A DNA stretch of 23,876 nucleotides. Origin: a virus. The stretch is from positions 1 through 23,876 of the IMG/VR virus record IMGVR_UViG_3300006030_000106; one strand, written 5' to 3'. The notes below the pieces were generated by a model. The model searched no databases. It had not been told where the DNA came from and was given only the letters and a program-made list of their open reading frames with translations. Every line of letters begins with the position of its first letter. Within the stretch, counting starts at the first letter, position 1. Shown one piece after another: positions 1 to 15,281 of this stretch. The position numbers and the translations under genes were made by a program.

Positions 1-43
1 TGCCTCTGTGCGCTTGGTTGAAATTGGGAGTTTGATTTTTGCC

Positions 44-505
44 ATGGGAAAAGGACGCAAACCAACACCAAAAGCTATCCTCAAAATCCGTGGTTCCCGT
101 ATCCGCGGGCCGCACGCTCGCGGCATCGACGCCCCGCCCGGCGTGCCACCGGCTCCGGCGTGGCTGGCCGATGTCGCCCGCGAAGAGTGGGATCGAATCG
201 TGCCGATGCTGGAAGCCAGCAAGGTGATGAGCCCGCGGCATCAACAAACGCTCGCCGCCTACTGCGACTCGTTTGCCGACATGGTCCAGGCCGATGCCGA
301 ACTCAAGGCAAACGGCACGACCATCATGGACGACAAAGGTAGAGTGAGTAATCACCCGGCTTGGCTGCGAAAGCGAGACGCACGGAATCAGATGTTGAAG
401 TTCGCAGCGGAGTTTGGGCTGACGGCATCTGCACTGGCGAGGGTTTCCGCCGTTGACGAAAAGAGCCCGGAAGACGAAGCGGCAGACGCCATCCTGTTCG
501 GGTGA
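44..505 (+). CDS. terS: Terminase small subunit, P27 family
   Basis: Small subunit of the DNA-packaging terminase, expected to recognise concatemeric phage DNA and hand it to TerL. The 153-residue product starts with a basic Gly/Lys/Arg segment (MGKGRKPTPKAILKIRGSR), as is usual for P27-type small subunits. A Pro-rich stretch (PPGVPPAPAWL) and a helical region with the A.EEWDRIVPML pattern follow, and the protein ends with an acidic tail. The same frame is open back to a GTG at position 8. I chose the ATG at 44 because the family N-terminus begins there and GGGAG lies upstream at 26-30. Its 3' end overlaps the possible start of terL, and terL and portal follow directly, which supports the call. 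The family assignment rests on recalled sequence pattern and context, not a database search. Confidence 0.85.
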   Translation: MGKGRKPTPKAILKIRGSRIRGPHARGIDAPPGVPPAPAWLADVAREEWDRIVPMLEASKVMSPRHQQTLAAYCDSFADMVQADAELKANGTTIMDDKGRVSNHPAWLRKRDARNQMLKFAAEFGLTASALARVSAVDEKSPEDEAADAILFG

Positions 506-2015
506 TTGCCGATGCGCGTCGTGTCGTGCGGTGCGATTCTTTGAGAAGCTGTTCACGCACGCAAAAGGCGAGCTAGGCGGCAAGCCTTTTGCGCTTCAGC
601 CCTGGCAACGCGACTACGTGCGGGCGCTGTTCGCGGAGAAAGACGGCAAGCGAACCGTGCGAACATCGCTGCTCGCCCTCCCTCGGAAAAATGGCAAGTC
701 GAGCCTGTGCGCCGGCATTGCCCTACGCCTCTTGCTCGAGGATGAGCCCGGCGTCGAGGTCTACTCGTGCGCCGCGTCTCGCGACCAAGCTCGCCTTGTT
801 TTCGATATGGCGAGGATTGCAGTCGAGCAGTCGCCAGTGCTGTCGAAACACTTGAAAGTATACCGAAACGCGATTGTGCGGGAGGAGACGCACGGCACCT
901 ACAAGGCACTGTCTGCCGAGGCTGGGATTCAGCACGGGCTTTCGGCGCACGGCGTCATCTTCGACGAGTTGCATGTCAGCGACCGCGAGATGTGGGAGGT
1001 GATGCTGTCGAGCCAGGGGGCAAGGCGGCAGCCGCTCACGGTGGCATTGACCACGGCTGGCTATGACCGCAAGAGCGTCTGCTGGGAGGTGTGGAAATAC
1101 GCGGAGCAGGTGGCAGCGGGGGCGGTCAAGGATGAAACTTTCCTGCCTGCCATCTACGCGGCTCCGATTGATGCCGATTGGAAGGACGAACGTACATGGG
1201 CGATTGCCAACCCTAATCTGGGCGTGTCGGTAAATCTCGATTTTCTGCGGAGCGAGTGTGCCCGAGCCGTAGAGATGCCGACATATGAAAACGCGTTCCG
1301 GCAGTTGTATTTGAACCAGTGGACCGAGCAAGACACTAGGTGGCTGCGGATGGATCACTGGGCTCGGGGCGGGCAGCCATGCCCGGTGACGCTCAATGGT
1401 CGCGAGTGCTGGGCGGGCCTTGATCTCGCGACCACGTTTGACACGACCGCATTTGTGCTGCTGTTTCCGCTTGAGGGTGGAAAGTATTGGGTGGAGCCTC
1501 ACTTCTGGATTCCAGAGGAGAACATGCGGGATCGGGTGCGGCGGGACAAGGTGGCTTATGACGTTTGGGCTCGCCAAGGCCATCTGCACCTGACACCGGG
1601 GAACGTCACCGACTTCGACCAAGTTCGTTCGGACATCAACGAACTCGCCAAGAAATACAACATCCGCCAGATCGGGGTGGATCGCTGGAATGCCACGCAG
1701 CTTGTGAATCAACTGAGCGGAGACGGGCTTCAGCTTTTAGGCTATGGGCAGGGCTACGGCTCAATGTCAGGGCCGAGCCTCGTTCTTGAGTCGCTTGTCG
1801 TCTCGGAAAAGCTGTTGCACGGCGGGCATCCGGTGCTCGCGTGGCAGGCCGGGAACGTGGCGATTCAGAAGGACCACAACGGCAACATCAAGCCCAGCAA
1901 GGCAAAGAGTAACGAACGCATTGACGGCATCGTGGCCCTCGTCATGGCTCTCGGCGTTCACGCGTCGCAAGAGGTGAAAGGGCCGGCAATGGAGCCTTCC
2001 ATCCTCATCCTATGA
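453..2015 (+). CDS. terL: Terminase large subunit (ATPase-nuclease)
   Basis: Motor and nuclease of DNA packaging. With a TTG start at 453 the product is 520 residues. The Walker A-like segment LPRKNGKSS lies near residues 76-84 and the Walker B segment VIFDE near 168-172, with acidic D171/E172. The C-terminal RNase H-like nuclease shows the expected acidic positions in GLDLA, GVDRW and the late RIDGIVALV segment. Length and order fit a full-length TerL. The start is uncertain. TTG 453 overlaps terS by 53 bases and adds a Lys/Arg-rich stretch and a Cys cluster (CSGDCRCASC). GTG 531 would avoid the overlap and begin at VRFFEKLF, close to where many relatives start, but it has no visible Shine-Dalgarno. 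The stop overlaps the portal start (ATGA). Confidence 0.93.
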   Translation: MTKRARKTKRQTPSCSGDCRCASCRAVRFFEKLFTHAKGELGGKPFALQPWQRDYVRALFAEKDGKRTVRTSLLALPRKNGKSSLCAGIALRLLLEDEPGVEVYSCAASRDQARLVFDMARIAVEQSPVLSKHLKVYRNAIVREETHGTYKALSAEAGIQHGLSAHGVIFDELHVSDREMWEVMLSSQGARRQPLTVALTTAGYDRKSVCWEVWKYAEQVAAGAVKDETFLPAIYAAPIDADWKDERTWAIANPNLGVSVNLDFLRSECARAVEMPTYENAFRQLYLNQWTEQDTRWLRMDHWARGGQPCPVTLNGRECWAGLDLATTFDTTAFVLLFPLEGGKYWVEPHFWIPEENMRDRVRRDKVAYDVWARQGHLHLTPGNVTDFDQVRSDINELAKKYNIRQIGVDRWNATQLVNQLSGDGLQLLGYGQGYGSMSGPSLVLESLVVSEKLLHGGHPVLAWQAGNVAIQKDHNGNIKPSKAKSNERIDGIVALVMALGVHASQEVKGPAMEPSILIL

Positions 2016-3826
2016 TCGCACCAGCAAACCGCATCCTCTGGCTTCCTGAAGGCGACGCCCGCAGTTGGGACTACGAATCTGGCGGCTGGGCATCTGGCGG
2101 TCGCAACCCGTCAGGCGTGCGGATTGATCCAGAGTCGGCCTTGCGTGCAACGGTCGTGCTCGCCTGTGTGCGGGTGCTTTCGGCATCGGTCGCCGGGTTG
2201 CCGCTGCATCTGTACCGGCGGATGGCCGGCGGCGGGAAAGAGCTTGCTCGCGACAACCCGCTCTACCGCGTGCTGCACGACACGCCGAACTCCTGGCAGA
2301 CCAGCTACGAGTGGCGAGAGACTTTGATGCTCCACCTACTCACGCACGGCAACGCATACTGCGAGATTCGTGGGGCAGGGGAGTTGCGGCAGTTGATTCC
2401 GCTTCATCCCTCGCGGATGCGAGTCGAGCGGCTGGAGAACGGACGGCTGCGGTACACGTACCGCGAAACTGGCGGCTCATCGACCGTCTATTCGCAGGAC
2501 GCCATCATGCACCTGCGGTGGCTTTCTGACGACGGCGTGAACGGGATGGTGCCGGTGGACATTGCTGGCGATGCCATCGGGCTGGCTCGCGCCTTGGAGA
2601 TTCACGGGGCGGCGTTCTTCGGCAATGGAGCCCGGCCTGGGCTTGTGCTTACGACCGATCAGATGCTTTCGCCCGAGGCTGCCGAGAACACGCGAAACCA
2701 GTGGGAGCGTGCCCATCGCGGCCCAGATCGAAGTCATCGCGTGGCGGTGCTTCAAGGCGGGCTGAAGATCGACGCCTATGGCGGGAACAATCAGGAAAGC
2801 CAATTTCTCGAGGCGCGGCGATTTCAGGTCGAGGAGATTTGCGGGCGGATCTACGGCGTGCCGCCTCACCTCATTGGCGACCTCTCGCGTTCTTCGTTCA
2901 GCAATATCGAGCAGCAGTCGCTCGACTACGTGCAGAATGGACTGATGCCGTGGTTGCGTCGGTTTGAGTCTGCCATTACCCGCGACCTCTTGACCGACGA
3001 CGAGACGTTCGCTGAGTTCGACGTTCGCGGTGCTCTGCGGGCCGACGCTGCGGGGCGCTCGGCGTTTTACAACACGATGGCTCAGTTGGGCGTCTTCAGC
3101 GTCAACGAGATTCGCGGGTTCGAGAATCTGAACCCCGTCGATGGCGGCGACATTCGCGTGGTGCCGCTGAACATGCAGACGCTTGAGCAGGCGAACGCAG
3201 CGGCTCAGTTGGCGATGGCTCCCGCGGCCGAGCCCGTGGCTGAGGAGATTGTGGTCGACGAGCCGGCGACCCCGGCGGATGCCCCAACTGTGCTCGGTGT
3301 CCTTGACCAATACCGTCAAGGCGTCATCACCATTGAGGCAGCGAAGGCGTTGCTCCAGGCGGCATTCCCGCAGACGCCCGAGGTGATGGTTGACACCATT
3401 CTCGCTGGCGTGGTGGTGCCAGAGCCAGAGCCAGAGCCCGAGCCGGTGCTGCCCGAGTCCCTCGTTGCCTCCCTGCCGGCCAGCCGAGCGATGACGATCT
3501 CGGTGGACTTCGACCGCACGTTCGCGGCTGACCCCGCTCTGTGGGGCGAGTTCGCCCGCAAGGCGGTAGCAGACGGCAACAGCGTGGTGATGGTCTCCCG
3601 TCGCCCCGAGGAAGACCGCGACGAAGTGACGCAGACGCTAGGCGAGTACGCGGAGGCGTTCTCCCAGGTGCTGCTGGTCGGCGGCGAGACGCTCAAGGAT
3701 GACGCGGCAAAGGCGGCCGGCATTGACGTTGACGTGTGGGTGGACGATTCGCCGCAGACGGTGAAGCCGCCGAAACCTTGCGAAGATTGTGCCGACAAGC
3801 CGAAATCGCGGAGTCGGAAAAAGTGA
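2012..3826 (+). CDS. HK97-type portal protein with C-terminal HAD-phosphatase-like domain
   Basis: Residues 1 to about 395 read as an HK97-family portal, the dodecameric ring through which DNA enters and leaves the head. Seen are the N-terminal VVLACVRVLSASVAGLPLHLY segment, the LLTHGNAYCEI core, FQVEEICGRIYGVPPHLIG and the late VNEIRGFENLNPVDGGD. Relatives usually stop near 400-450 residues; this one has 604. A helical segment (about 425-465) and an acidic Pro/Glu linker (about 469-480) lead into a HAD-like domain at about 494-581. That domain has motif I DFDRT (D499, D501), motif II VMVSRR (S529), a motif III Lys candidate (K562 or K567) and motif IV VDDSP (D578, D579). The tail has a CEDC pair and basic residues. 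The gene starts inside the terL stop and ends in a GTGA overlap with the kinase gene. The portal call is firm. The HAD call rests on all four motifs in order, and its activity is inferred. Confidence 0.88.
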   Translation: MIAPANRILWLPEGDARSWDYESGGWASGGRNPSGVRIDPESALRATVVLACVRVLSASVAGLPLHLYRRMAGGGKELARDNPLYRVLHDTPNSWQTSYEWRETLMLHLLTHGNAYCEIRGAGELRQLIPLHPSRMRVERLENGRLRYTYRETGGSSTVYSQDAIMHLRWLSDDGVNGMVPVDIAGDAIGLARALEIHGAAFFGNGARPGLVLTTDQMLSPEAAENTRNQWERAHRGPDRSHRVAVLQGGLKIDAYGGNNQESQFLEARRFQVEEICGRIYGVPPHLIGDLSRSSFSNIEQQSLDYVQNGLMPWLRRFESAITRDLLTDDETFAEFDVRGALRADAAGRSAFYNTMAQLGVFSVNEIRGFENLNPVDGGDIRVVPLNMQTLEQANAAAQLAMAPAAEPVAEEIVVDEPATPADAPTVLGVLDQYRQGVITIEAAKALLQAAFPQTPEVMVDTILAGVVVPEPEPEPEPVLPESLVASLPASRAMTISVDFDRTFAADPALWGEFARKAVADGNSVVMVSRRPEEDRDEVTQTLGEYAEAFSQVLLVGGETLKDDAAKAAGIDVDVWVDDSPQTVKPPKPCEDCADKPKSRSRKK

Positions 3827-4956
3827 TCGCCGTCTTCCGCCCATCGCGAGTCGGTGACGCCGACGCCGTGCTGCGGTGCGTTCGGATTCTGCGGGCAGTG
3901 CAGGCAGGCATTGAGCGGCGAGACTGCGGAACCGGTGCCGGCGGGTTCAAGCCAGGAAACAAGTGTGCGGGCGGCGGCGGAGGGAGTGATTCAAGCGGCA
4001 GCGGCGACTCAAGTGCTGGTGCCGGCAGCGACTCGGTGGATTCCGGCGGCGGCGGTGCAGATGGGCCGGCACATGTGAAGGGGAGTAAGGCTCACGACGA
4101 GAGAGAGTCGCACAGGAAGACTAGGCGTGTTGAGGACTACCCGGAGGTTCGGCAGAGCGAAGACCACACCTCCGTGCGGCACACTGTTTCGGAGCCGCGC
4201 TACGACAGCAACGGACAATACATGCCTCCCGACAAGCCTTCCGACTGGACTCCAGAGCGGCAGGCGATGCACCGCGAGATCATCGCCGACGCGACCGCTG
4301 GCGTTCCACGATCAGAACAGCCAACGCTCTACATGATGGGCGGCGGGCCGGCGGCCGGAAAAAGCAGCATCATCAAAAGCGGAGACGTGAAGCATCCTGA
4401 CAAGCACGTCCTGTCAAATCCTGACGACCTAAAGGAGGATCTGCCGGAGTATCGTGCTGGATTGGCGGCCGGAGATCATCGTGCGGCTAGGGTCGCTCAC
4501 GAGGAGTCTTCATACCTGAACAAGCAGGTCATGAATGCCGCTGCCAGAAACGGGCAAGACGTTGTGTGGGATGGCACTGGCGACAACAGCATTGACAAGC
4601 TAGATCAGCAAGTTCGCGTGCTCAAGGATCGCGGCTACAAAGTGCAGGCCGACTACGTGACCTGCGACACGGAACTTGCGGTAGAAAGATCTAACGCCAG
4701 GGCCGCCAAGACCGGCAGGGCAGTGCCACCGGACGCCATCCGCGAAACGCACGCTCGCGTATCTGAAATCTGGCCCGAGGCCGTGAGCCGCGGACTGTTT
4801 GACCGCAGCGACCTCTACGACACCAATAGCGGCGGCAAGCCCGTGCTCATTGCCCGGGCGCGTGGCACAACCCTCGAGGTACTCGACAAGGCCGCCTACA
4901 AGCGCTTTCTGGATAAAGCCAAGCGCGGCAAGAGATCTATCCGCAAGGCCCGCTAG
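3823..4956 (+). CDS. Zeta-toxin-like P-loop kinase with Gly-rich linker
   Basis: The 377-residue product starts at GTG 3823, which overlaps the portal stop (GTGA) with GGAG nine bases upstream; the frame is open back to 3736. The N-terminus carries the motif CGTGAGGFKPGNKC (residues 35-48) and then a Gly/Ser/Asp-rich flexible stretch. The kinase domain begins near residue 165: Walker A GGGPAAGKSS (K180), the possible catalytic acid in NPDDL (D201/D202), HEESS (226-230), WDGTGDN (D250) and the ERSNARAAKTGR segment with R289, R293 and R299. This is the order seen in zeta/PezT toxins, which phosphorylate UDP-N-acetylglucosamine. The actual substrate is unknown. No epsilon antitoxin was recognised next to it. 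Its place after portal, where MuF-type head proteins or cargo often sit, suggests a head-associated or virion-carried enzyme; that part is inference. Confidence 0.82.
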   Translation: MIAVFRPSRVGDADAVLRCVRILRAVQAGIERRDCGTGAGGFKPGNKCAGGGGGSDSSGSGDSSAGAGSDSVDSGGGGADGPAHVKGSKAHDERESHRKTRRVEDYPEVRQSEDHTSVRHTVSEPRYDSNGQYMPPDKPSDWTPERQAMHREIIADATAGVPRSEQPTLYMMGGGPAAGKSSIIKSGDVKHPDKHVLSNPDDLKEDLPEYRAGLAAGDHRAARVAHEESSYLNKQVMNAAARNGQDVVWDGTGDNSIDKLDQQVRVLKDRGYKVQADYVTCDTELAVERSNARAAKTGRAVPPDAIRETHARVSEIWPEAVSRGLFDRSDLYDTNSGGKPVLIARARGTTLEVLDKAAYKRFLDKAKRGKRSIRKAR

Positions 4957-5120
4957 TTAAGAAGCATGTCGGGAGACTGCCCGTTGGCGATCATCTCCGC
5001 GACCTGTTTCTTGACCTTCTCAAAGTAGGCTTTTGCCTCATCGCCTTTGATGCTGGGCGTGTCTTTGCCCATGATTGCATCGCCTAAGAGCTGATTCAGC
5101 GCATCGCCATCGAGTGCCAT
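4953..5120 (-). CDS. Small acidic-helical protein of unknown function
   Basis: A 55-residue product starting at ATG 5120 with a strong Shine-Dalgarno (AGGAG, seven bases upstream). The same frame is open to 5147, but that start has no such site. The sequence is probably all-helical (ALNQLLGDAIMG, then EAKAYFEKVKKQVAEMIANG) with no Cys and no membrane segment. I do not recognise the family. It is the last gene of the inverted cassette. Its stop codon overlaps the stop codon of the zeta-like kinase tail to tail (4953-4956), so transcripts from the two strands must run into each other here. An antitoxin role against the kinase is conceivable from position alone and is not supported by any sequence likeness to epsilon that I can see. 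Confidence 0.72.
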   Translation of the reverse strand: MALDGDALNQLLGDAIMGKDTPSIKGDEAKAYFEKVKKQVAEMIANGQSPDMLLN

Positions 5121-5176
5121 GATACGTCTCCTGTGATTCCGCATCATACCACCGCTGAATCTAGAACGCCCTCCGC

Positions 5177-5449
5177 TCAGAGCAGCATCTCGCCGGTCAC
5201 GACGTATTGCTCGGCCAGCTTTTCCATCGCGCGGATCGTGACCACGTACTCATGCCATCCGGCCTTGTGCTGGGCTGCAGGCGTCAGTGCGTCAGCGGTA
5301 AGCGTGCCGGTGTGAGTGATGCCGCGACCCTTCAAGACGAGCGGCGTCTCGATGTAGTAGTGATTCCCGTAGTGGCCCAGGTGGGCCTCAATCTGCGAAT
5401 CCTCGCGCCGCTTCTCGCCCATCTCCGGGTGGAAAAAGTGCATCCCCAT
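5177..5449 (-). CDS. Unrecognised 90-residue protein in inverted cassette
   Basis: The product is 90 residues. It starts at ATG 5449 behind an almost perfect Shine-Dalgarno (AAAGGAGGTG); a second in-frame ATG at 5443 is also possible. The N-terminus is His-rich (MHFFHPEMG, then HLGHYGNHYY). The middle reads VLKGRGITHTGTLT and the C-terminal half has a conserved-looking HKAGWHEYVVT segment followed by a helix. The pattern looks like a small mixed alpha/beta protein without a signal peptide or membrane segment. I do not recognise a named family. It lies between the 55-residue gene and the DUF3560 gene, on the same strand and with the same style of ribosome binding site, so it is probably co-transcribed with them. 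Confidence 0.75.
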   Translation of the reverse strand: MGMHFFHPEMGEKRREDSQIEAHLGHYGNHYYIETPLVLKGRGITHTGTLTADALTPAAQHKAGWHEYVVTIRAMEKLAEQYVVTGEMLL

Positions 5450-5480
5450 GTGTCACCTCCTTTTGCCTCACCGAACCACA

Positions 5481-5503
5481 CCGGGCGGCCCTGTGCCACC
5501 CGG
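5481..5503 (-). other. Intergenic GC-rich hairpin inside inverted cassette
   Basis: CCGGGCGG (5481-5488) pairs with CCACCCGG (5496-5503) around a seven-base loop. This is eight pairs with one G-T wobble. It lies between the DUF3560 stop and the ribosome binding site of the 90-residue gene. There is no T-run after it on either strand, so it is not a clear terminator. It may stabilise or punctuate the cassette mRNA. Confidence 0.4.
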
Positions 5504-5510
5504 CGACCCG

Positions 5511-6257
5511 TCACCCCACTGCTGCGGGCAGTTGCGCCCGATAGCCAATCCAGCCACCGCCCGACCACCGGAACCCCGCGGCCTTGAGATCATTCAGAAC
5601 CTCGCGTGCCGGCTTCTCGGCAAAGGTCACTCGGACAAACTCGCCGCCCTCGATCAGAACCCCCCCCGCTGCCTCCTGGGCCGCCTCTGACCGCTGCGCC
5701 GTCTGCTCAACGAGGGCGAGCCGCTTCCGGTCTGCAGCGATCTGCTGCCGCAGGTTCGACAGGGCGTAGGGCGGGTACGGATGAGGCTCCCAGGAGTATT
5801 GCGGGACGTAGTTTCGAATCCGCTCTGCCTCTGCCTCGCTGAGCCCGTCAGGCATGACGCCGGTCTTCTGGAACTTGGCATGCGCCTTGTTGACCACTTT
5901 CATCCGCTCAACGATTCGCTCCCGATCGGCCATCCGCCTCTTGAGCTGCTCGGCGGCATCGGCGTCATCGGTGAAGATCGTCCGGTTGAGCGCCCGCTCA
6001 ATGTTGGCGGCCTTCCGGCTGTGCTCGTCGGCCATCTTGGCCGACTCCACCCCGGCGTTCATGTTTGCCACGATTCGAGCGGCGTCACGTCGGTGCCTGC
6101 GCTCGGAGTGGTGGCCGACAAGAATCGGCTGCCCGAACGGGATTCCGTCGGCGACCGTCTTGGCGGTCTGAAACGCCGCGCCCGCCTTGGCGGCCCGCTT
6201 CGCGGCCCACTCATGCCGCAACTCCGCTCGCCGCTCCATCCTTTCCCGCATGGTCAT
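5511..6257 (-). CDS. DUF3560 domain protein
   Basis: The product is 248 residues. The N-terminal half is strongly basic and helical and contains the hallmark GQPILVGHHSERRHRRD at about residues 42-58, which I recognise from DUF3560 proteins of plasmids and phages. A long helical region follows. The end (about 208-238) is a small domain, VRVTFAEKPAREVLNDLKAAGF followed by RWSGGGWIGY, which also occurs at the C-terminus of relatives. The molecular role of DUF3560 is unknown; relatives often sit in plasmid or phage early regions with anti-restriction or DNA-metabolism genes. The start is ATG 6257 with GGAAGGTG upstream; ATG 6251 is an alternative. It is the largest gene of the minus-strand cassette. 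Confidence 0.82.
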   Translation of the reverse strand: MTMRERMERRAELRHEWAAKRAAKAGAAFQTAKTVADGIPFGQPILVGHHSERRHRRDAARIVANMNAGVESAKMADEHSRKAANIERALNRTIFTDDADAAEQLKRRMADRERIVERMKVVNKAHAKFQKTGVMPDGLSEAEAERIRNYVPQYSWEPHPYPPYALSNLRQQIAADRKRLALVEQTAQRSEAAQEAAGGVLIEGGEFVRVTFAEKPAREVLNDLKAAGFRWSGGGWIGYRAQLPAAVG

Positions 6258-6266
6258 GGTTCACCT

Positions 6267-6721
6267 TCCTTTCGTTGTTGGGAAATCACAGAATCACTTG
6301 CCGCCGGCCATACCGGGCGGCCCCGGCGGGCACCTCCCAGTTGGCTTCGGCGTATCCAGGCAGCCTTCCGACCGCAGCGTTCTTGATCCACCGCAGATAC
6401 TTCTCTGCGTCGCTGCCATCCCACTGGTCCCAATCGCAGCACTGGTACTCAAGGCATTGGGCGGCCTTGAGGATCTCGACAAGCTCGAGGTCAAGCCTGC
6501 CAACCTTTTCGGCCGCCTCCTCAGCCGGGTCGCCGTAGCGATCGGTCAGGGCGTTCAGGTTGGCCTGCTTCAACACTTGGAACAACTTGCCATGCTGCGG
6601 GAACCCGGCCCCTCGGCACTTATCCGCGAAGCAGCAGATCGCGGTGATGTGGTCGTCACTGACAAGGAAAGCGCTCATCTTCCACCGTCCTTTCTTGTTT
6701 GAGAATCAGCCACTTGCCGCC
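6267..6721. repeat. Imperfect direct repeats flanking the 130-residue gene
   Basis: The spacer at 6267-6305 and the spacer at 6688-6721 share the blocks TCCTTTC, AGAATCA and CACTTGCCGCC in the same order, with small insertions between them. The 11-base block is identical in both. They bracket the gene at 6286-6678 and include the ribosome binding site of the gene on one side and the 3' end of the gene on the other. They could be recombination junctions that allow gene exchange in the cassette, or duplicated leader DNA. Confidence 0.5.
6286..6678 (-). CDS. Conserved phage/plasmid protein of unknown function, 130 residues
   Basis: The product starts MSAFLVSDDHITAICCFAD. It has a middle part with ALTDRYGDPAEE and the pattern ILKAAQCLEYQCCDWDQWD in the second half. 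This N-terminal block plus the later Cys-containing helix ending in YQC resembles a widespread uncharacterised family in phages and mobile elements; I cannot give a name or function. There are five Cys, two as CC pairs, so metal binding is possible but no classical zinc motif is present. The start is ATG 6678 with AAAGGACGG upstream. Related spacer DNA flanks the gene on both sides, which hints that it moves as a unit. Confidence 0.78.
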   Translation of the reverse strand: MSAFLVSDDHITAICCFADKCRGAGFPQHGKLFQVLKQANLNALTDRYGDPAEEAAEKVGRLDLELVEILKAAQCLEYQCCDWDQWDGSDAEKYLRWIKNAAVGRLPGYAEANWEVPAGAARYGRRQVIL

Positions 6722-6936
6722 ATCACTGCCATCATCTTCGCGTTCGGACCCCAGTAGTGACCGATCAGTTCCCCGGTGTATGCCTTGATGGCGGTCCACG
6801 GAAACTGCTCGGTCTTGGTGTTGGCGTACTTGTAAATGACGCCAACCACAACATCTCCACGCTTCACGAGGTACTCGTTCGGGACGTTTCGCCCGGTCGC
6901 CTTCTTGTAAAGCTCAACGGTCACTGCCTTGGACAT
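6706..6936 (-). CDS. Unrecognised 76-residue protein
   Basis: The product starts at ATG 6936 behind AAAGGAGAG. It is a small, moderately basic protein: an N-terminal strand-helix (AVTVELYKKATGR), a DVVVGVIYKY strand and a segment FPWTAIKAYTGELIGHYW. It has no Cys, no signal peptide and no membrane span. I do not recognise it. It sits four bases from the next minus-strand gene at 6940-7185 and shares the cassette's strong ribosome-binding style, so it is very likely expressed with its neighbours. Confidence 0.72.
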   Translation of the reverse strand: MSKAVTVELYKKATGRNVPNEYLVKRGDVVVGVIYKYANTKTEQFPWTAIKAYTGELIGHYWGPNAKMMAVMAASG

Positions 6937-6939
6937 CGC

Positions 6940-7185
6940 TCACTCTCCTTTCTGGGCGGCTGCAGCCGCGACAACCTTCTCGTACTCAAGCTCCCACGCC
7001 GCAGGCTGGGGGACCATTTGATTGGCCTCCCCGCCATACTGGGCCGCGTACTCCTTGGCCCGCTTCTCGGTGATCCCGAACATCCGCTGGCTCATGTGCT
7101 GGCCGACCCACTGCCAGTTCTGGGGCTCTGGGCCAGCCATCGCCGCAGCCAACTCGCGGAAGTGATTCAGAACAGCTTCGTTCAT
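6940..7185 (-). CDS. Unrecognised 81-residue helical protein
   Basis: The product starts at ATG 7185 with AAAGGAGG upstream. The sequence is mostly helical: MNEAVLNHFRELAAAMAG, then WQWVGQHMSQRMFGITEKRA and a C-terminal WELEYEKVVAAAAAQKGE. The segment around MFGITEKRAKEYAAQYGG looks like a small helix-turn-helix-like or UBA-like fold but has no motif I can name. It is one base from the downstream end of the first cassette gene and four bases from the following one, which indicates one operon. Confidence 0.72.
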   Translation of the reverse strand: MNEAVLNHFRELAAAMAGPEPQNWQWVGQHMSQRMFGITEKRAKEYAAQYGGEANQMVPQPAAWELEYEKVVAAAAAQKGE

Positions 7186-7186
7186 C

Positions 7187-7393
7187 TCAAGCCTCCTTTC
7201 GCACGTAACCGTATTTCGGACTACTCACAGAAATCGCGTCACGCTTCTCGCCGTGAACCACGATCGGCGAATCCAGCTTCACGAACACCGAATCGTTTCC
7301 CTTTTGCCAGCCGTGCCAGTACCAGACGCCCTGAACGACGCCCGAGAACTCAGCCCCGAAATACTTCCCGCGAACTCGATCACCCTTTTCCAT
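7187..7393 (-). CDS. Small SH3-like beta-rich protein, first gene after the cassette promoter
   Basis: A 68-residue product, predicted to be mostly beta strands: EKGDRVRGKYFGAEFSGVVQG, then DSVFVKLDSPIVV and KRDAISVS. The pattern of a GDRVRG strand, a GVV turn and a later VKLD strand resembles small SH3/KOW-like barrels found in plasmid and phage proteins, but the function is unknown. The frame is open to 7423. I chose ATG 7393 because it has a near-perfect AAAGGAGG at the right distance. About 37 bases separate this start from the predicted transcription start of the promoter at 7437-7465, so it should be the first gene translated. Confidence 0.74.
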   Translation of the reverse strand: MEKGDRVRGKYFGAEFSGVVQGVWYWHGWQKGNDSVFVKLDSPIVVHGEKRDAISVSSPKYGYVRKEA

Positions 7394-7436
7394 CACCAGC
7401 CTCCTTTCCTCTCGATCACTCATCCCTCACACCACC

Positions 7437-7465
7437 AATATATCCAATCGGCAATACCAAAGCAA
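7437..7465 (-). promoter_or_regulatory. Sigma70-like promoter of the inverted cassette
   Basis: Read on the minus strand, TTGCTT (7460-7465) and TATATT (7437-7442) are separated by 17 bases. Each matches the -35 and -10 consensus well, and the region is AT-rich compared with its surroundings. Transcription would begin near 7430, about 37 bases ahead of the first well-supported start codon at 7393. The exact host consensus is unknown. Confidence 0.6.
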
Positions 7466-7503
7466 GAGGGTGAGACAGAAAAAATCGCCCCTAAAAACGG
7501 CCT

Positions 7504-7530
7504 AGTTTCCAGTATTTCCGACTGGACACT
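7504..7530. promoter_or_regulatory. Imperfect inverted repeat, candidate operator
   Basis: AGTTTCCAGT (7504-7513) and ACTGGACACT (7521-7530) are inverted copies with nine of ten positions matching, around a seven-base spacer. The inner six-base arms (TCCAGT/ACTGGA) are perfect. The repeat lies between the HTH gene and the cassette promoter, roughly 75-100 bases upstream of the predicted transcription start. The dyad spacing suits a dimeric DNA-binding protein, for which the adjacent HTH protein is the obvious candidate. A weak stem-loop at the end of the HTH transcript is the alternative. Confidence 0.45.
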
Positions 7531-7548
7531 TAGTACCGTGAGAAACGG

Positions 7549-7746
7549 CTATTCGCGGGGCCTTCCGGCCGTGGGGTGCCGGCTGAACCGCTCGGCATCT
7601 GCCCGGCGAATGAACCACTGATTTTCGATTCTGAAGGCCCGCACTTTGCCTGTAGAGGCCAGTTGCCTCATCCAGAGCCTGGACACATCTGCCAGCTTTG
7701 CGGCCGTCCCAACGCTCACGTACTCGTCTGGGTTGATTTTGGGCAT
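7549..7746 (-). CDS. Excisionase/MerR-like helix-turn-helix protein
   Basis: A 65-residue product starting at ATG 7746 (MPKINPDEYVSVGTAAKLAD); the frame is open to a GTG at 7776. The pattern VSVGTAAKLADVSRLWMRQL, then GKVRAFRIENQWFIRRADAERF, is the winged HTH of the Xis/AlpA/MerR-like group. In that group an N-terminal helix pair reads DNA and an aromatic W.I...D..RF wing follows. Such small proteins act as excisionases or as transcription regulators. No integrase is in the window, so control of the cassette promoter just downstream is my preferred reading, as inference. No convincing Shine-Dalgarno precedes either start. The gene is divergent from the protease gene; only about 56 bases separate their starts. 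Confidence 0.75.
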   Translation of the reverse strand: MPKINPDEYVSVGTAAKLADVSRLWMRQLASTGKVRAFRIENQWFIRRADAERFSRHPTAGRPRE

Positions 7747-7802
7747 GGCTGCGAAGTCTATGGAACTGCAAGCCACGGGGCAACCATCGGTAGCCTGACT
7801 TT

Positions 7803-8822
7803 ATGGCTAAGTATGACCACATCGACTTCAGCCCGCCCGCCGGCGTCCGCGAGGAGGCGGCGAAAGGACTTGCATGGCGAGACGAACACGGCCGCGGAGG
7901 CACGGCTGTCGGCGTGGCTCGCGCCCGCGACCTCTCGAACGGAACGAACATCTCGCCCGACACGGCGAAGCGGATGGCGAGCTACTTCGCCCGACACGAA
8001 GTGGACAAGCAAGGCGAAGGCTGGAGCCCAGGACAAGACGGGTTCCCGAGTGCGGGCCGGATCGCGTGGGCTCTCTGGGGCGGCGACCCCGGCCAAGCGT
8101 GGGCGAGCAAACTGACCAAGCAGATCGAAGCAGCAGACGAGGAGGCGAGGAGCATCATGGGCAACATTGAACGCCGGTCCCTAGCGATCGACACGGTTGA
8201 GTCAGCGGTTCCGCTGCTGGCCGTCGAGTCGCGGTGTGAAGAGGGCGAGACCTGCGAGCGCGAGTGGATCGTCGGCTATGCGGCGAAGTTCGGCGTCAAC
8301 TCGCTCGTGCTCGGGGACTTTGTGGAGCGGATTGACCCCGGTGCGTTCGGCATCGTCAGCGAGCGGCGTGGCCGGCGGCAGCCGCTCGAGACAAGGGCTT
8401 TGTGGAACCACGACGCCAATTTCCCACTGGCCCGTTTTCCCGGCACGCTGAAGATGAGCGTCGACGAGGTTGGGCTCCGCTACGAGTTTCCGGTGCCCGA
8501 CACGACCTACGGGCGGGACATCGCCAGCAACATCCGCGCGGGCATCGTCAAGGGCTCGTCGTTCTCGTTCACTGTGCCGAGCGGCGGCGACTCGTGGAGC
8601 GTGGAGGACGGGCGAAGCATTCGCACGATTCAACGCATTGACTCGCTTCTCGATGTTGGCCCGGTGACGTTCCCCGCGTATCCCGATGCCGATGTGAAGG
8701 TTGCACAGCGGAGCTACCAGCACTTTCGGAACGGGCAGCAGCGGCACCGCAAGGCTGCCGCACACATGGCGACGCGGGCCGCGTTTTACCGCGATTTCCT
8801 GGGGAAGTATGGCAGCAAGTAG
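7803..8822 (+). CDS. HK97-family prohead protease with extra N-terminal domain
   Basis: The product is 339 residues. The C-terminal part (about 120-300) is the capsid maturation protease. It shows WIVGYAAKFG, FVERIDPGAF, the catalytic His in ALWNHD (H203), the serine in VKGSSFSF (S253 by alignment with the usual GMSFGF) and the closing DVGPVTFPAYPD. HK97-type proteases are usually about 200-230 residues. Here a separate domain of about 110 residues precedes it, with ARDLSNGTNISPDTAKRMAS, YFARHEVDKQ and SAGRIAWALWGGDPGQAWA. I have seen this RHE...GRIAW..WGGD pattern in other phage proteins but know no function. ATG 8157 (M119), with GGAGGCGAGGAG just before it, could allow the protease domain to be made alone. 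The start at 7803 has a weak ribosome binding site. Confidence 0.9.
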   Translation: MAKYDHIDFSPPAGVREEAAKGLAWRDEHGRGGTAVGVARARDLSNGTNISPDTAKRMASYFARHEVDKQGEGWSPGQDGFPSAGRIAWALWGGDPGQAWASKLTKQIEAADEEARSIMGNIERRSLAIDTVESAVPLLAVESRCEEGETCEREWIVGYAAKFGVNSLVLGDFVERIDPGAFGIVSERRGRRQPLETRALWNHDANFPLARFPGTLKMSVDEVGLRYEFPVPDTTYGRDIASNIRAGIVKGSSFSFTVPSGGDSWSVEDGRSIRTIQRIDSLLDVGPVTFPAYPDADVKVAQRSYQHFRNGQQRHRKAAAHMATRAAFYRDFLGKYGSK

Positions 8823-8997
8823 CGGCGACTCCTGCACAAAGTGCCGCAAGGGTCGCCTTGCGGTCGCCTCAAGTCAGCGCAGTGGCGAGTATCAGACTCG
8901 CTACTTGCGATGCAATCGGTGCGGCAACACCGACAAGCAGATCGTGCACGGCGGTGAGATTCGCCGCACGAAGTCTTTTACTGCCGCCGCATCGTAA
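8809..8997 (+). CDS. Small zinc-ribbon protein
   Basis: A 62-residue product overlapping the protease stop by 14 bases, with ATG 8809 preceded by GGGGA. It contains SCTKCRKG near the N-terminus and RYLRCNRCGNTDK about 26 residues later. This CxxC...CxxC arrangement is that of a zinc ribbon, where four Cys hold one zinc. The rest is short and basic. Similar tiny zinc ribbons are known from phage late regions, but the role is not. It may bind nucleic acid or assist capsid assembly; nothing in the sequence decides this. Confidence 0.72.
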   Translation: MAASSGDSCTKCRKGRLAVASSQRSGEYQTRYLRCNRCGNTDKQIVHGGEIRRTKSFTAAAS

Positions 8998-8998
8998 C

Positions 8999-9062
8999 TG
9001 CGGGGTTTTGAGACTGGCTCCATAGGTTCGGGATAGGCGGCGATTGGTCGCCACACCCCGCA
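8999..9062 (+). promoter_or_regulatory. Structured leader of the major capsid gene
   Basis: TGCGGGGT (8999-9006) is perfectly complementary to ACCCCGCA (9055-9062). Inside this closing stem, GGCGA (9039-9043) pairs with TCGCC (9048-9052) around a TTGG loop. The outer stem ends one base before the AGGAG ribosome binding site (9064-9068). An RNA fold here could protect the transcript or tune initiation on the most abundant virion protein. Confidence 0.45.
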
Positions 9063-9076
9063 CAGGAGCTTCCCTC

Positions 9077-10441
9077 GTGGACAAGATCAAGGCACTGCTC
9101 GAAGAACTGGCCGCCGTCGTTGCTGAGATGGAAGCGATGACCGAAGACGCCCCCGAGGGCGAGGCCCCTGCCGAGCCGATGACCGAAGAGCAAGAGGCGT
9201 CGCTCCGGTCCCTTGAAGCTAAGGCCGACAAGCTCCGCGAGCGGATCGAGTTCCTGTCTCGCGTTCAGTCCAAGGAGCTTGAGCTCCGCGCCGTGCTGGA
9301 GCGTGGTGCTCCTGCCCGCAAGGTCGAGACAAAGACCGAGACCCCCGAGGAGGCTCCCGCCGTGGAAAGCCGCGCGAAGATTTTTCCGGTTCAGAATCAC
9401 CGCCCCCTCAAGGCGTTTCGCTCTGCCGAGTCGGCGTACCGCGCCGGCATGTCGGTTCGTGCCACGCTTTTTGGTGACGCCGAGGCTCGCCGGTGGTGCG
9501 AAGATCACGGCGTTGAAACCCGCGCCCAGTCCGGCGGGATCAATTCGCTCGGCGGTGCGCTGACGAATCCCGAGCTGTCTGGCGAGATCGTCCGACTCGT
9601 TGAGGAGTATGGGGCGTACCAAGCCAACGCTCGCGTTGTGACGATGAACAGCGACACGCTGCTCATCGCTCGTCGAACGGGCGGGCTCTCGGCTCGTGCC
9701 ATCGGCGAGAACGCCGCCCCGCTGACCAGCGACGCGACGTTTGACAACGTGCAGCTGGTCGCCAAGCTCTGGGGCGTCGACAACCGCGTGCCTGTCTCGC
9801 TCGTCGAAGACTCGGTCATCGACCTTGCTGATGCAATGGCAGTCGAGGTGGCGCAAGCCTTCGCAGAAACGTATGACCGCGTCGGCTTTGTCGGAACCGG
9901 GGCTGGCACCGACCACGGGATCGTGGGCGTGGCGACGGCGATTGTTGATGGCACCCACAGTGCCAGCGTGGTGACGGCTGCCAGCGGAAATACCACCTTC
10001 GACTCGCTCGACCTGCTCGACTTCACGAACGTGGTCGCGAAGCTCCCGTTGTATGCTCGCAATCGAAATGCGAAGTGGTACGTGAGCCCGGCGGGCTACG
10101 GCTCCTCCATGCTGCGGCTGATGATGGCGGCTTCCGGTAACAACCGGGCCGACGTTGCTGCCGGTGCGAACTTGCAGTTCCTCGGCTTCGATGTGGTGCT
10201 TGTGCATCCGCTTGAGTCGGCTCTTACTAGCACGACTGGCAAAGTGGCCTGCCTGTTCGGCGACCTCTCGCAGGCCGCCACGATGGGCATCCGCCGCGAA
10301 GTTAGCATCAAGACCGACGCCAGCCGGTTCATTGAGTACGACCAGCTTTTGACTTTTGCGACGGCCCGCATGGCTTCGGTTGCTCACGACCTGGGCTCCA
10401 CGACCGCTGCTGGCCCGATGGTGGCTCTCAAGTTCGCCTGA
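9077..10441 (+). CDS. Major capsid protein, HK97 fold
   Basis: The product is 454 residues from GTG 9077, chosen because AGGAG stands eight bases upstream; the frame also contains a TTG at 9044. The first 110 or so residues are helical and acidic (KIKALLEELAAVVAEMEAM, then EASLRSLEAKADKLRERIEF). This matches the scaffold-like delta domain that the prohead protease removes. The capsid part follows with SGGINSLGGALTNPELSGEI, LLIARRTGGLSARAIGEN, VDNRVPVSLVEDS, the GTGAGTDHGIVG loop and the late VLVHPLESA and ATMGIRREV strands. These are the usual landmarks of HK97-type capsid proteins with the expected length. It follows the protease and precedes the probable decoration gene. Confidence 0.93.
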   Translation: MDKIKALLEELAAVVAEMEAMTEDAPEGEAPAEPMTEEQEASLRSLEAKADKLRERIEFLSRVQSKELELRAVLERGAPARKVETKTETPEEAPAVESRAKIFPVQNHRPLKAFRSAESAYRAGMSVRATLFGDAEARRWCEDHGVETRAQSGGINSLGGALTNPELSGEIVRLVEEYGAYQANARVVTMNSDTLLIARRTGGLSARAIGENAAPLTSDATFDNVQLVAKLWGVDNRVPVSLVEDSVIDLADAMAVEVAQAFAETYDRVGFVGTGAGTDHGIVGVATAIVDGTHSASVVTAASGNTTFDSLDLLDFTNVVAKLPLYARNRNAKWYVSPAGYGSSMLRLMMAASGNNRADVAAGANLQFLGFDVVLVHPLESALTSTTGKVACLFGDLSQAATMGIRREVSIKTDASRFIEYDQLLTFATARMASVAHDLGSTTAAGPMVALKFA

Positions 10442-10470
10442 ACCTTCCCTTTGACTTAGGAGACTGACCC

Positions 10471-10899
10471 TTGAACTTTCTCGAAGCCACCAAAACCGTT
10501 GTTGGCACCACTGTCACATCGGCAGCCGGCACGGCGACTTTGACCATTGATACCCTTGGCTACAGCTACGCGTCGATTGACGTTGTTGTCGCGGTGAGCG
10601 CCACGCCGGCCAATACCGCTGCGAGCATCCTCAACGTGTTGACGCTTTCGCAGGGCGACACCACCACGGCTGGTTCTAGCGTCTACACCGTGGCGGCTCC
10701 CGCCGCGAGCGTGGCCGTGACGGCTCAGCCTTCGGTTGTGCGGCTGGATGTCGACTGCCGCGGCAAGAGCCGTTACCTCAAGATCGACGCCACGCCGGCG
10801 ACCAGCCTTGCCACGACCATCCTGGCGCGGCTTGGAAGGGGCGAGGTCGGCCCCGAGTCGGCTTCTGCTAAGGGCGTCTTGTCGAAGTATTCTGGCTGA
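10471..10899 (+). CDS. Probable capsid decoration or other abundant virion protein
   Basis: A 142-residue product from TTG 10471 with AGGAG eight bases upstream. The sequence is Ala/Thr/Val-rich and beta-strand-like: TTVTSAAGTATLTIDTLGY, then SIDVVVAVSATPA and a C-terminal RYLKIDATPATSLATTILARL. I do not recognise a family. Its place directly after the major capsid gene, its small size and the strong intrinsic terminator right after it fit a head decoration or cement protein made in amounts similar to the capsid protein. This role is inference from context. Confidence 0.7.
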   Translation: MNFLEATKTVVGTTVTSAAGTATLTIDTLGYSYASIDVVVAVSATPANTAASILNVLTLSQGDTTTAGSSVYTVAAPAASVAVTAQPSVVRLDVDCRGKSRYLKIDATPATSLATTILARLGRGEVGPESASAKGVLSKYSG

Positions 10900-10926
10900 T
10901 GTTCTTGACAGCCCAGCGACAGTATG

Positions 10927-10967
10927 TGGCGGATGCGGAACTTTCCCGCATCCGCCATTTACTTTTG
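10927..10967 (+). terminator. Intrinsic terminator after the capsid genes
   Basis: TGGCGGATGCGG (10927-10938) is perfectly complementary to CCGCATCCGCCA (10946-10957), giving a 12-base-pair stem with a seven-base loop. TTTACTTTT follows at 10958-10966. It lies 27 bases after the stop of the decoration candidate and just ahead of the glycosyltransferase start at 10978. It probably lowers transcription of the downstream genes compared with the capsid gene. Confidence 0.85.
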
Positions 10968-10977
10968 CGAGGGCTTC

Positions 10978-11712
10978 ATGATCGTCAAGGTGGGATCGAC
11001 CGACGTTGATGTCCGTATTGAGTGCGTGATGAGCGGGCCGCGCTTCGGTCCCCTTGCGAATGTCTTCGGCTGGGCTCAGGCGCTCATGCCGCTCGGCATC
11101 CGCCCTACGCTGGGGCAGGGAGCCCTCTGGGGGCAAGTGCTTCAGCGGTGCATTGAGCAGTTCGTGGACTCAACCGAGTTCATTTTGTGCACCGACATGG
11201 ATTCTTTCTGGGATCGCAAAACCGTCGAGGAGTTGGTGTCGATAGCGTTGGCGCTTCAGTGTGACGCCCTGGCACCGATGCAAGTCAAACGGGAGGACGG
11301 TCGCCCGATGTTTACGCTGCCCGGCACGCTCGACAAGCCGCCAGACGGTGGGTCAACGGAGCTGCCGATGTCGTGGTTTGCGGAGCCTGTGCAGGAGGTG
11401 GACTCGGCCCACTTCGGCTGCACGCTCATCTCAACCAAGGCGTTGAAGCGAACGCCGAAACCCTGGTTTCAAGACCAGCCTAACGCAGCCGGCGAGTACG
11501 GCGACGGACGAATTGACGCCGACATTCACTTCTGGCGGCAATTCAGGGCCGCAGGGAATCGCCTCTACATCACGCCTCGCGTCTGTATCGGGCATGGCGA
11601 GTGGGTGGCGGTCTGGCCCGGCAAAGACCTTCAGAAACCCGTGTTTCAGTACACAGGCGACTACAACGCCAATGGTAAACCCAAAACTGCGTGGAGTGTG
11701 CCGCCATCGTGA
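10978..11712 (+). CDS. Glycosyltransferase-like protein (GT-A fold)
   Basis: A 244-residue product starting at ATG 10978, the first good start after the terminator, with GAGGG just upstream; the frame is open further back through the terminator stem. FILCTDMDSFWD (residues 68-79) carries the D73/D75 metal-binding DxD of GT-A enzymes. Later come DSAHFGCTLIS (142-152), PWF (162-164), GRIDADIHFWRQFRAAGN (177-194) and the His in CIGHGEW (H206). The order fits family-2-like glycosyltransferases: nucleotide-sugar site, substrate loop, acidic xED-like base (D180 or D182) and metal-binding His. It has no membrane segment. The sugar and acceptor are unknown. It overlaps the next gene (GTGA). A glycosyltransferase inside the head module suggests modification of virion proteins; DNA or host-surface modification are alternatives. 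Confidence 0.78.
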   Translation: MIVKVGSTDVDVRIECVMSGPRFGPLANVFGWAQALMPLGIRPTLGQGALWGQVLQRCIEQFVDSTEFILCTDMDSFWDRKTVEELVSIALALQCDALAPMQVKREDGRPMFTLPGTLDKPPDGGSTELPMSWFAEPVQEVDSAHFGCTLISTKALKRTPKPWFQDQPNAAGEYGDGRIDADIHFWRQFRAAGNRLYITPRVCIGHGEWVAVWPGKDLQKPVFQYTGDYNANGKPKTAWSVPPS

Positions 11713-11948
11713 AAATAAAACTGAGGAAGAACTACTCGACCTATCGCGTCGGCGCGGTAATCGACTGTGAGGACGAGACGGCCAAGCGGCTCATTCGTGA
11801 CGGCATCGCCGAACGCGACGGGCAGCTTGACCTCATCGAGACGGCGAGCGTCGAGCCGGCAGGCGAGCGAGCCGACCTGACACCGAGGAAGCGAGGGCGA
11901 CCGCGTGCGGTATCGAAGTCTGAAGACGCTGACGCAGCCGGCGGCTGA
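11709..11948 (+). CDS. Small head-module protein with AT-hook-like tail
   Basis: A 79-residue product from GTG 11709, inside the stop of the previous gene, so translation is probably coupled. The N-terminal part (VKIKLRKNYSTYRVGAVIDC, then ETAKRLIRDGIAE) is a small beta-rich domain often seen near HK97-type head genes, where a strand, a YR.G.VID turn and an A..LI..G.AE helix recur. I know no function for it. The C-terminus is disordered and basic and contains KRGRPRA, an AT-hook-like RGRP core, followed by an acidic end. The 3' end overlaps the start of the connector gene. Confidence 0.75.
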   Translation: MKIKLRKNYSTYRVGAVIDCEDETAKRLIRDGIAERDGQLDLIETASVEPAGERADLTPRKRGRPRAVSKSEDADAAGG

Positions 11949-12501
11949 GCCTGTGTCACTCTCAGAGGCGAAGCAGCATTGCCGCGTCGATACTGACAGC
12001 GACGATGCCTACATCGGCTCCCTGATTGCAGCGGCGAGGGAGTGGTGCGAGGCATACTGCGACGAGACGTTCGTGCATACGCGGTACAAGATGACGCTCG
12101 ACTCGTTTCCCACCGAGATCGAGCTTCCCCGCCCGCCAATGGCGACTGCCGGCACAGCGACCGCGGTGGTCGTGACCTACACGCTTGAAAACCAGACGAC
12201 GGCGGTGCTTTCGACGAGCGAGTACCGGGTGGACCGCGACGCGACGCCCGGCGTCTTGCGGACGAACTACAACGGCTCCTGGCCCTCGCATCTGCTCGAC
12301 TACAACGCGGTGACGGTCACGTGGTGGGGTGGCCGCGACGGTGACGCGTCGAGCCTGCCGCAGCGGTTCAAGTCGGCGGTGCTCTGGCTTGTGGGGTACT
12401 GGTATGAACGCCGCATGGCGGCGGAATCCGTCAACCTCAGCGAGATACCTTTTGGCGTCAAGAGCCTGCTCGATAGTGCGAAGTGGGGTGCCTACCGATG
12501 A
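11905..12501 (+). CDS. Head-tail connector protein, gp6-like
   Basis: A 198-residue product from GTG 11905, with GCGAGGG upstream. It shows the usual features of the gp6/YqbG-type adaptor that docks under the portal. The N-terminus has a helix-forming VSLSEAKQHCRVDTDSDDAY and then IGSLIAAAREWCEAYCDETF. A middle beta part follows with IELPRPPMA, and a C-terminal helix contains LPQRFKSAVLWLVGYWYERR. The length is typical. Four Cys are present, none in a metal-site pattern. The stop overlaps the next start (ATGA). Order relative to capsid, closure and completion genes supports the call. Confidence 0.86.
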   Translation: MRYRSLKTLTQPAAEPVSLSEAKQHCRVDTDSDDAYIGSLIAAAREWCEAYCDETFVHTRYKMTLDSFPTEIELPRPPMATAGTATAVVVTYTLENQTTAVLSTSEYRVDRDATPGVLRTNYNGSWPSHLLDYNAVTVTWWGGRDGDASSLPQRFKSAVLWLVGYWYERRMAAESVNLSEIPFGVKSLLDSAKWGAYR

Positions 12502-12926
12502 GCATCAAAGGAAAGTTTGCCGTCGATGTGCAGTTCACAGACTCGACTACTGATGGGAACGTCAAGTCGCTCAAGACGATCGCGCTACAGCACGCGACGG
12601 AGTATGACTTTGGCAAAATTGCCATCATCACCGGCACCTGCGGAACGGCTGTCATCAACGTCGACTGCAACTCGCCGGGCTATCGCGACGCCGCTGGCGA
12701 CCTCGTGACGTTTTCAAGCATCAGCCGCGTGGCGTTCTCGGCAGGCGGCAGCGAGCTCGTGCGGTGTGCAAGCGATCAGTTTGACACGGTCGGCTATGCC
12801 ATGACGCTGTACTCGCGTGCCGGCCAAGTAGCCGTGTCCGAGTGCATCGAAGACAACGAGTTTGAGATCGGCGTCGCCGCGACTGCCGGAACCGCGTCCT
12901 ACACTCTGGTGCTCTACGGCTCATGA
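12498..12926 (+). CDS. Unrecognised beta-rich head-module protein
   Basis: A 142-residue product from ATG 12498, which overlaps the connector stop (ATGA); the frame is open to 12483. The sequence is predicted to be mostly strands: KFAVDVQFTDSTTDGNVKSL, then KIAIITGTCGTAVINVDCNS, SRVAFSAGGSELVRCASDQF and a final ASYTLVLYGS. The size and beta-rich character resemble the decoration candidate after the capsid gene, though I see no clear sequence identity. Four Cys are present. It sits between the connector and closure genes, an uncommon place for an extra gene, so it is probably a virion protein of unknown role. Confidence 0.72.
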   Translation: MSIKGKFAVDVQFTDSTTDGNVKSLKTIALQHATEYDFGKIAIITGTCGTAVINVDCNSPGYRDAAGDLVTFSSISRVAFSAGGSELVRCASDQFDTVGYAMTLYSRAGQVAVSECIEDNEFEIGVAATAGTASYTLVLYGS

Positions 12927-13243
12927 TTGACCCAGGACGCCTGCGCGAGCGGATCACGATTCAGCAGGCGACCGAGACGCGGAACGCCATTGGCGAGTCT
13001 ACGCAAACGTGGGCGACCTTTTCCCAGCGATGGGCCAGCGTCGACGGCATTAGTGCTCGCGAGTTTCTGACCAGCGGCCAGCAGCAGACGGAAATCACGC
13101 ACCGAGTGCGTATGCGATACCTCGCCGGCCTCAACTCCACGATGCGTGTGCTCTGGCGTGGCCGGGTGCTCGAGATCGCCTCGTGCCTGGAGCACGCAAA
13201 CCGCAGCGAGCATGAACTGCTCTGTACGGAGAGGGTGGATTGA
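12923..13243 (+). CDS. Head closure protein (phage head-tail joining family)
   Basis: A 106-residue product from ATG 12923 (ATGA overlap). The sequence has the pattern of the SPP1 gp16 / HK97-type joining family. The N-terminus MIDPGRLRERITIQQATETR is followed by a WATFSQRWASVDGISAREFL segment, THRVRMRYLAGL, and a final RVLEIASCLEHANRSEHELL strand pair. These proteins form the ring that closes the connector and keeps DNA in the head until injection. Length and place are typical. The stop TGA overlaps the next ATG by one base. Confidence 0.88.
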   Translation: MIDPGRLRERITIQQATETRNAIGESTQTWATFSQRWASVDGISAREFLTSGQQQTEITHRVRMRYLAGLNSTMRVLWRGRVLEIASCLEHANRSEHELLCTERVD

Positions 13244-14435: not shown

Positions 14436-14450
14436 TAAGGAGAACGCCTC

Positions 14451-15278: not shown

Positions 15279-15281
15279 AAA

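Follow-up and report, generated by a model that had tools for sequence, protein, structure and literature searches.

The portal gene of the virus described here encodes an HK97-type portal body that carries a HAD phosphatase-like domain at its carboxy-terminus. The same fusion is present in at least 80 related contigs, and relatives of the domain are attached to other portals and to S78 prohead proteases. Taken together, these arrangements suggest that the domain may be loaded into the head as cargo.

Organisation of the window and of the portal protein

The window, by which we mean the whole stretch of DNA analysed, is a full IMG/VR virus record of 23,876 bases. Its genes are arranged in the order terminase small and large subunits, portal, a zeta-type open reading frame, an island of minus-strand genes, S78 protease, HK97-type capsid and tail genes. 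The portal gene (positions 2012–3826, plus strand) is an open frame of 604 amino acids, located between terminase and protease as for an HK97-type portal. The portal body (residues 48–372, positions 2153–3127) matches PF04860 (Phage_portal) with an E-value of 5.3e-106, and the reading frame also matches portal_HK97/TIGR01537. The initial annotation, in which this gene was read as an HK97-type portal with a carboxy-terminal HAD fusion, is borne out by the PF04860 match (E 5e-106), the HAD motifs and the recurrence of the fusion.

In the AlphaFold model of the tail, a disordered stretch is followed by a three-helix domain (residues 427–465, positions 3290–3406), which corresponds to the LNGAQ...AFP domain found in related portals. 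Next come a disordered Pro/Glu linker (residues 471–489, positions 3422–3478), in which the pLDDT is mostly below 50, and the HAD phosphatase-like module (residues 494–584, positions 3491–3763), which contains D499, D501, S529, R531, K562, D578 and D579. Just before the module is Arg492 (positions 3485–3487, in PASR|AM), a candidate prohead-protease cleavage site, and the protein ends in a basic tail, DKPKSRSRKK (positions 3794–3823). The span of 3480–3826 originally assigned to the HAD domain covers the module, and in addition takes in the linker arginine and the basic tail.

The next reading frame on the plus strand (positions 3823–4956), a cargo gene encoding a zeta-toxin-like kinase, most likely starts at GTG 3823, which overlaps the portal stop codon (GTGA). 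It is followed by small minus-strand genes (4953–7776), including one for a DUF3560 protein (5511–6257) and an HTH_17-like one (7549–7776). This block splits the late operon between the cargo gene and the protease gene; it is absent from two loci that are 97% identical to the window on both flanks (L072 and L075) and is partly common to two distant loci (L003 and L007). The S78 prohead protease, the proposed cutter at the arginine sites, is encoded at 7803–8822 (plus strand; PF04586, E 7e-37), and the HK97-type major capsid protein at 9044–10441 (plus strand), with VESR (residues 107–110) at the expected junction of scaffold and mature protein. Between the capsid and connector genes, an open reading frame of 262 amino acids (10924–11712) contains a DxD-like motif (TDMDSFW) and has similar sequences in many related loci. 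It gave no significant Pfam match and possibly encodes a glycosyltransferase-like protein.

Structure and family of the HAD domain

The AlphaFold2 model of the HAD domain, calculated from an alignment of 63 sequences, has a mean pLDDT of 90.8, and its structural elements follow each other in the HAD order. Motif I follows strand 1, S529 closes strand 2 (40–45 of the model), K562 begins a helix and the D578/D579 pair closes strand 4. The model therefore places motifs I to IV of the superfamily at their canonical positions in a predicted HAD Rossmannoid fold, as had been expected from the motifs, and D499, D501, S529, D578 and D579 are found where the initial annotation put them. For the lysine of motif III, residues 562 and 567 had both been considered; K562 is retained and K567 is not, K562 being invariant among the 63 relatives. 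Also invariant in these relatives, which are 24–84% identical, are D499, D501, T503, R531, W576, D578 and P581, while D579 is kept in at least 90%. Loss of the nucleophile D499 was thus not seen in close homologues. In an alignment with standalone phage relatives (21–33% identity), all these residues are kept, including D579, and the position of S529 is occupied by threonine.

The carboxy-terminal part of the portal (residues 485–604) matches PHROG families 4919 (E 3e-14) and 4256 (E 2e-13), both without annotated function; it matched no Pfam family and no NCBIfam HAD model. The HAD domain also gives a weak match to PHROG 415, polynucleotide kinase (E 0.027). None of the 63 relatives has a Pfam HAD match at an E-value of 0.01; a relative, L306, matches PF08282 (E 0.0014) just below the cut-off of that model. 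When the model was compared with solved structures using Foldseek, the matches were weak (best E 0.02), with Rossmann-like non-HAD proteins mixed in; HAD proteins near the top were the phosphoglycolate phosphatase core, the CopA P-domain, T4 PNKP and BT_0820. Against the viral structure library, small phage HAD proteins were found at E-values of 6e-7 to 4e-6 and, lower down, proteins annotated as XkdF or prohead protease at 9e-4 to 0.02. A sequence search of solved structures with the HAD domain alone returned irrelevant matches only, and a profile search gave two designed proteins first and then, weakly, the class B acid phosphatase AphA (E 0.06) and BT_0820 (E 0.69). Judged from these comparisons, the domain belongs to a family of small phage HAD proteins that is unnamed in Pfam and normally standalone.

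Recurrence and modularity of the fusion

A scan for the HAD domain found 106 relatives, from which 80 loci were kept. In these, the domain is 72–84% identical to that of the window and is carboxy-terminal on an HK97 portal wherever a portal part is present. The other portals with this domain, for which the initial annotation had proposed a search, retain the DFDRTF, SRR, K and VDDSP motifs in 81 of 81 portal-HAD sequences. The median dN/dS is 0.15 (2461 pairs), indicative of purifying selection. A frameshift, two genes wrongly joined or a chance event were considered and rejected, since the fusion is shared by independent contigs in which every motif is preserved and dN/dS is about 0.15.

The HAD domains show the same 72–84% identity whether the portal bodies are 49% or 99% identical. 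When L072 and L075 are compared with the window, the large terminase subunits are 100% identical and the portals about 99%, while the HAD domains are 77% identical. Over positions 1–3757 and 7803–15762, both loci share about 97% identity with the window; the 3' half of the HAD region differs, and the whole 4 kb after it is missing. Among the best 80 loci of a search with the portal body, 31 complete tails have the HAD domain, 31 do not and five tails are incomplete; these counts include near-duplicates and so are not estimates of prevalence. The exact insertion point of the domain is visible when L055 is compared with L117. No named phage with a related portal matches more than 80% of the full-length query. 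On the evidence of these comparisons, the HAD domain is an accessory, swappable cassette on portal tails. A TUDOR-like module (PF11160, E 6.5e-5, just below the cut-off, at residues 639–685 of L065) is present in many related tails, with or without the HAD domain.

Further scans found mostly standalone proteins, together with carboxy-terminal fusions to lambda-type portals (L267/L304, L306 and L307, with PF05136 confirmed) and to S78 proteases (L332–L382, among them L352 and L361, with PF04586 confirmed in three). Where a portal could be recognised in a protease-HAD locus (six loci), it lacks the domain, and each of the 12 protease-HAD loci checked contains a single HAD domain. L215, a locus of a Phycisphaerales MAG, has the HAD domain (part of which is masked) on a separate reading frame overlapping the end of the portal gene, and its portal carries a tag and an HExxH-like domain instead. 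In a tree, which is based on a short alignment and is weak in its deep branches, the HAD domains of HK97-type portals form one group (100/100) with those of proteases as neighbours (100/92), the lambda-portal ones being apart (95/78). The standalone relatives are encoded near genes for DNA polymerase, exonuclease, primase or nucleotide metabolism, and among the matches listed in a HAD-only search of named phages the proteins look standalone. In four of the protease-HAD loci (L333, L352, L360 and L380), the protease-HAD gene and the capsid gene are separated by genes for small membrane proteins and by one for a putative cysteine protease of papain-like type, recognised by eye.

An arginine at the module borders

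In a survey of 127 distinct portal tails, an arginine precedes the HAD domain in 95 of 95 cases (49 distinct junction sequences), the TUDOR-like module in 59 of 59 and a CGTG-type tag in eight of eight. The usual form of the junction is (E/A/S)-x-R-(A/S/N/D/T). In the upstream tail (13,360 residues), arginine makes up 1.06% and ExR is absent. The fused HAD domain starts at the methionine that opens the standalone enzyme, so the arginine belongs to the linker. At the capsid junction of scaffold and mature protein, ExR is present in 16 of 16 distinct variants, and the conserved VExR resembles the tail junctions; the HK97 capsid protein is likewise cut after a basic residue, at K103/S104 (PMC10275583). 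The protease-HAD proteins have an arginine on either side of the HAD domain, while the lambda-portal fusion of L307 has none nearby; an ExR-like capsid junction is present in one of the three protease-HAD phages looked at. A shared specificity of the prohead protease would be the simplest account of these junctions. The junction sequences are related to each other and thus are not independent observations, and the arginine may instead be a trace of shared ancestry or of recombination sites. The VESR sequence inside the protease itself was considered as evidence of cleavage and dropped, as it coincides with a strand that S78 proteases have in common.

The gene slot after the portal and basic tails

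The zeta-type kinase matches PHROG 16619, a family annotated as minor head protein, with an E-value of 2e-45 and gives a weak match to the XopAJ/AvrRxo1 zeta family model; only the zeta domain was found in it, with no match to MuF. It starts with a leader, VIAVFRP...IERR, and contains a tag, CGTGxGGFxPGNxC, both of which recur in other loci with different carboxy-terminal domains. The cargo proteins of L014 and L005 match ART-PolyVal above the cut-off, and those of L008 and L002 give weak ART matches; several others contain HExxH motifs. In L096, L173 and L215, cargo-type domains are fused to the portal itself. Compared with polyvalent proteins, which combine multiple unlike enzyme domains in a single injected chain, the window portal contains one enzyme domain; that of L173 adds a weak LPD1 match and an HExxH-like region. 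Sequence comparison shows that, in this group of uncultured phages, the portal tail and the gene position behind it form a polymorphic site for effectors. Basic tails occur on most related portals and on cargo proteins: at least four Lys or Arg are present in the last 12 residues of 36 of 38 distinct portal and 10 of 14 cargo carboxy-termini, and of none of the terminase and capsid ones. Putative HExxH zinc metallopeptidase-like domains, with weak or absent database matches, are located in the portal tail or next reading frame of L031, L166, L169, L173, L211 and L215.

Proposed role of the HAD domain and alternatives

Portal carboxy-termini generally face the capsid interior, as portal crowns. 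As a carboxy-terminal arm of the portal, up to 12 copies of the HAD domain would be placed inside the procapsid, while its relatives would enter on the prohead protease. Since the domain is optional on portals, and is also found on proteases and, in L215, on a separate reading frame, the common theme appears to be entry into the procapsid and not a position at the neck; whether riding on portal or protease, the domain would end up inside. The S78 protease would probably cut at the arginine just before the module, freeing a small phosphatase of roughly 12 kDa inside the head, which could then enter the host together with the phage DNA, with the portal channel as a candidate route. There it would act early, like its standalone relatives expressed from early or replication-region genes, its most likely action being to dephosphorylate nucleic-acid ends or nucleotides. 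A head-delivered early enzyme is the simplest joint reading because the relatives are otherwise standalone proteins near replication and nucleotide genes. We infer packaging in the head, cleavage, injection and substrate alike, and see about an even chance that the domain is a head-cargo enzyme, probably freed by the prohead protease and possibly injected; the same even chance covers, jointly with this, its being a capless HAD phosphatase with an intact predicted active site. A nucleotide or nucleic-acid phosphate as the substrate is proposed tentatively. For analogous portal and protease fusions, packaging and injection have been inferred in PMC9503650 and PMC5512222.

A wider reading, possible though somewhat doubtful, is that enzyme modules bordered by prohead-protease sites are interchangeable cartridges, which would be carried by portal or protease, freed at maturation and injected. 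The copy number of the carrier would be fixed at 12 portals or some tens of proteases, and so the carrier would set the enzyme dose of the virion per infection; the counts in HK97 Prohead 1 are 12 portals and about 60 proteases (PMC12749128).

The initial annotation had left the HAD domain on the portal ring, inside the head or at the neck, acting on packaged DNA ends. Such a ring-bound domain, acting in place at packaging or ejection by, for example, dephosphorylating DNA ends or nucleotides, would agree with the location on the portal, the conserved catalytic residues, the basic carboxy-terminal tail, the presence of T4 polynucleotide kinase/phosphatase in the Foldseek top ten and the weak PHROG polynucleotide kinase match. 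We consider it unlikely, given that half of the complete tails of close portals lack the domain, that relatives are on the protease, which is not a part of the ring, or on a separate reading frame, and that the arginine junctions suggest excision. It is rather more conceivable, though still on the doubtful side, that the arginine is a trace of module recombination and that the portal-HAD protein functions uncut, an explanation that overlaps with the ring-bound and non-enzymatic ones. Modules do recombine at their borders, as seen between the window and L072 and between L055 and L117, and the related tails are not independent; against this, the arginine is kept at unrelated modules (HAD, TUDOR-like and tag) and at the capsid junction alike, while the adjacent residues vary.

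A non-enzymatic structural or DNA-contacting module that merely kept the HAD fold would fit the module order and the basic tail, and neighbours such as the TUDOR-like module may be binding domains, but the invariance of D499, D501, K562 and D578, and near-invariance of D579, in relatives with as little as 24% identity would be difficult to understand if the domain had no catalytic role, and makes this quite improbable. We see still less reason to believe that the HAD domain undoes the product of the neighbouring zeta-type kinase and so protects the producing cell. Kinase and phosphatase genes are adjacent and overlap, in the same order also in L003 and L007, but most HAD portals are not followed by a zeta gene, and in the loci examined the protease-HAD and standalone forms have no link to one. 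A general partnership of the HAD domain specific to the zeta kinase was likewise rejected, zeta being absent after most HAD portals.

Returning to the head-cargo reading, it links a HAD family mostly labelled hypothetical in well-studied phages to delivery by the virion, and so points to a role in the first minutes of infection. It further makes a specific prediction of where an S78 prohead protease would cut, and proposes a rule for how HK97-type heads are loaded with enzymes.

Host and relation to known systems

Both matches among genome contigs are in Planctomycetota MAGs. A scan of 392 Planctomycetota genomes with the HAD profile gave no match beyond the MAG already known. The host is probably a member of the Planctomycetota, and only probably because binning of phage contigs into MAGs can err.

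Internal head proteins of phage T4 are processed by the T4 head protease, and T4 uses separate genes with targeting sequences for these proteins and for Alt, whereas here the portal itself is the carrier. The T4 Alt ADP-ribosyltransferase is loaded in the head and injected, as cited in PMC5512222. The same paper (Iyer et al. 2017) reports portal fusions of PBECR, 2H and InPase, and PMC9503650 (2022) reports that Nudix is fused to MuF, to the portal and to the head protease, the packaging logic being the same. As in these fusions, the enzyme is carried by a head protein, which would let it be packaged and probably injected. Compared with what is described there, the present case differs in that members of a single HAD family are attached to S78 proteases as well as to two types of portal, with a mosaic tail and conserved arginine borders. 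The words "haloacid" and "phosphatase" are absent from the PMC5512222 text. The initial annotation knew of no described portal-HAD fusion; neither this nor a protease-HAD fusion was found in the literature searched, most subscription papers lying outside that search. Because enzyme fusions to portal and head protease are already published, what is new is narrowed to HAD as the fused enzyme. The MuF polymorphic toxins (PMC5576092) are likewise polymorphic effector genes directly downstream of the portal gene, but in the window the cargo protein has the VIAVFRP... leader and CGTGxGGFxPGNxC tag, and a MuF domain was not found.

Motif II of T4 polynucleotide kinase/phosphatase reads Ser-x-Arg, as in the window HAD domain. 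The T4 enzyme (PDB entry 2ia5) also shares the HAD fold and the catalytic aspartate pair, with about 20% identity, a Foldseek E-value of 0.04 and a TM-score of 0.52 on the query; the window HAD polypeptide differs in having no kinase domain. The standalone phage HAD proteins (PHROG 4919 and 4256, of Vibrio CHOED, phiEco32-like, Escherichia 4MG and Pseudomonas phiK7A1 phages) belong to the same family by sequence and predicted structure, but are unfused and mostly encoded in early, replication or metabolism regions. Their labels in phiEco32-like, Escherichia 4MG-like and Pseudomonas syringae phages are inconsistent, ranging from hypothetical to carbohydrate binding, acid phosphatase and polynucleotide kinase.
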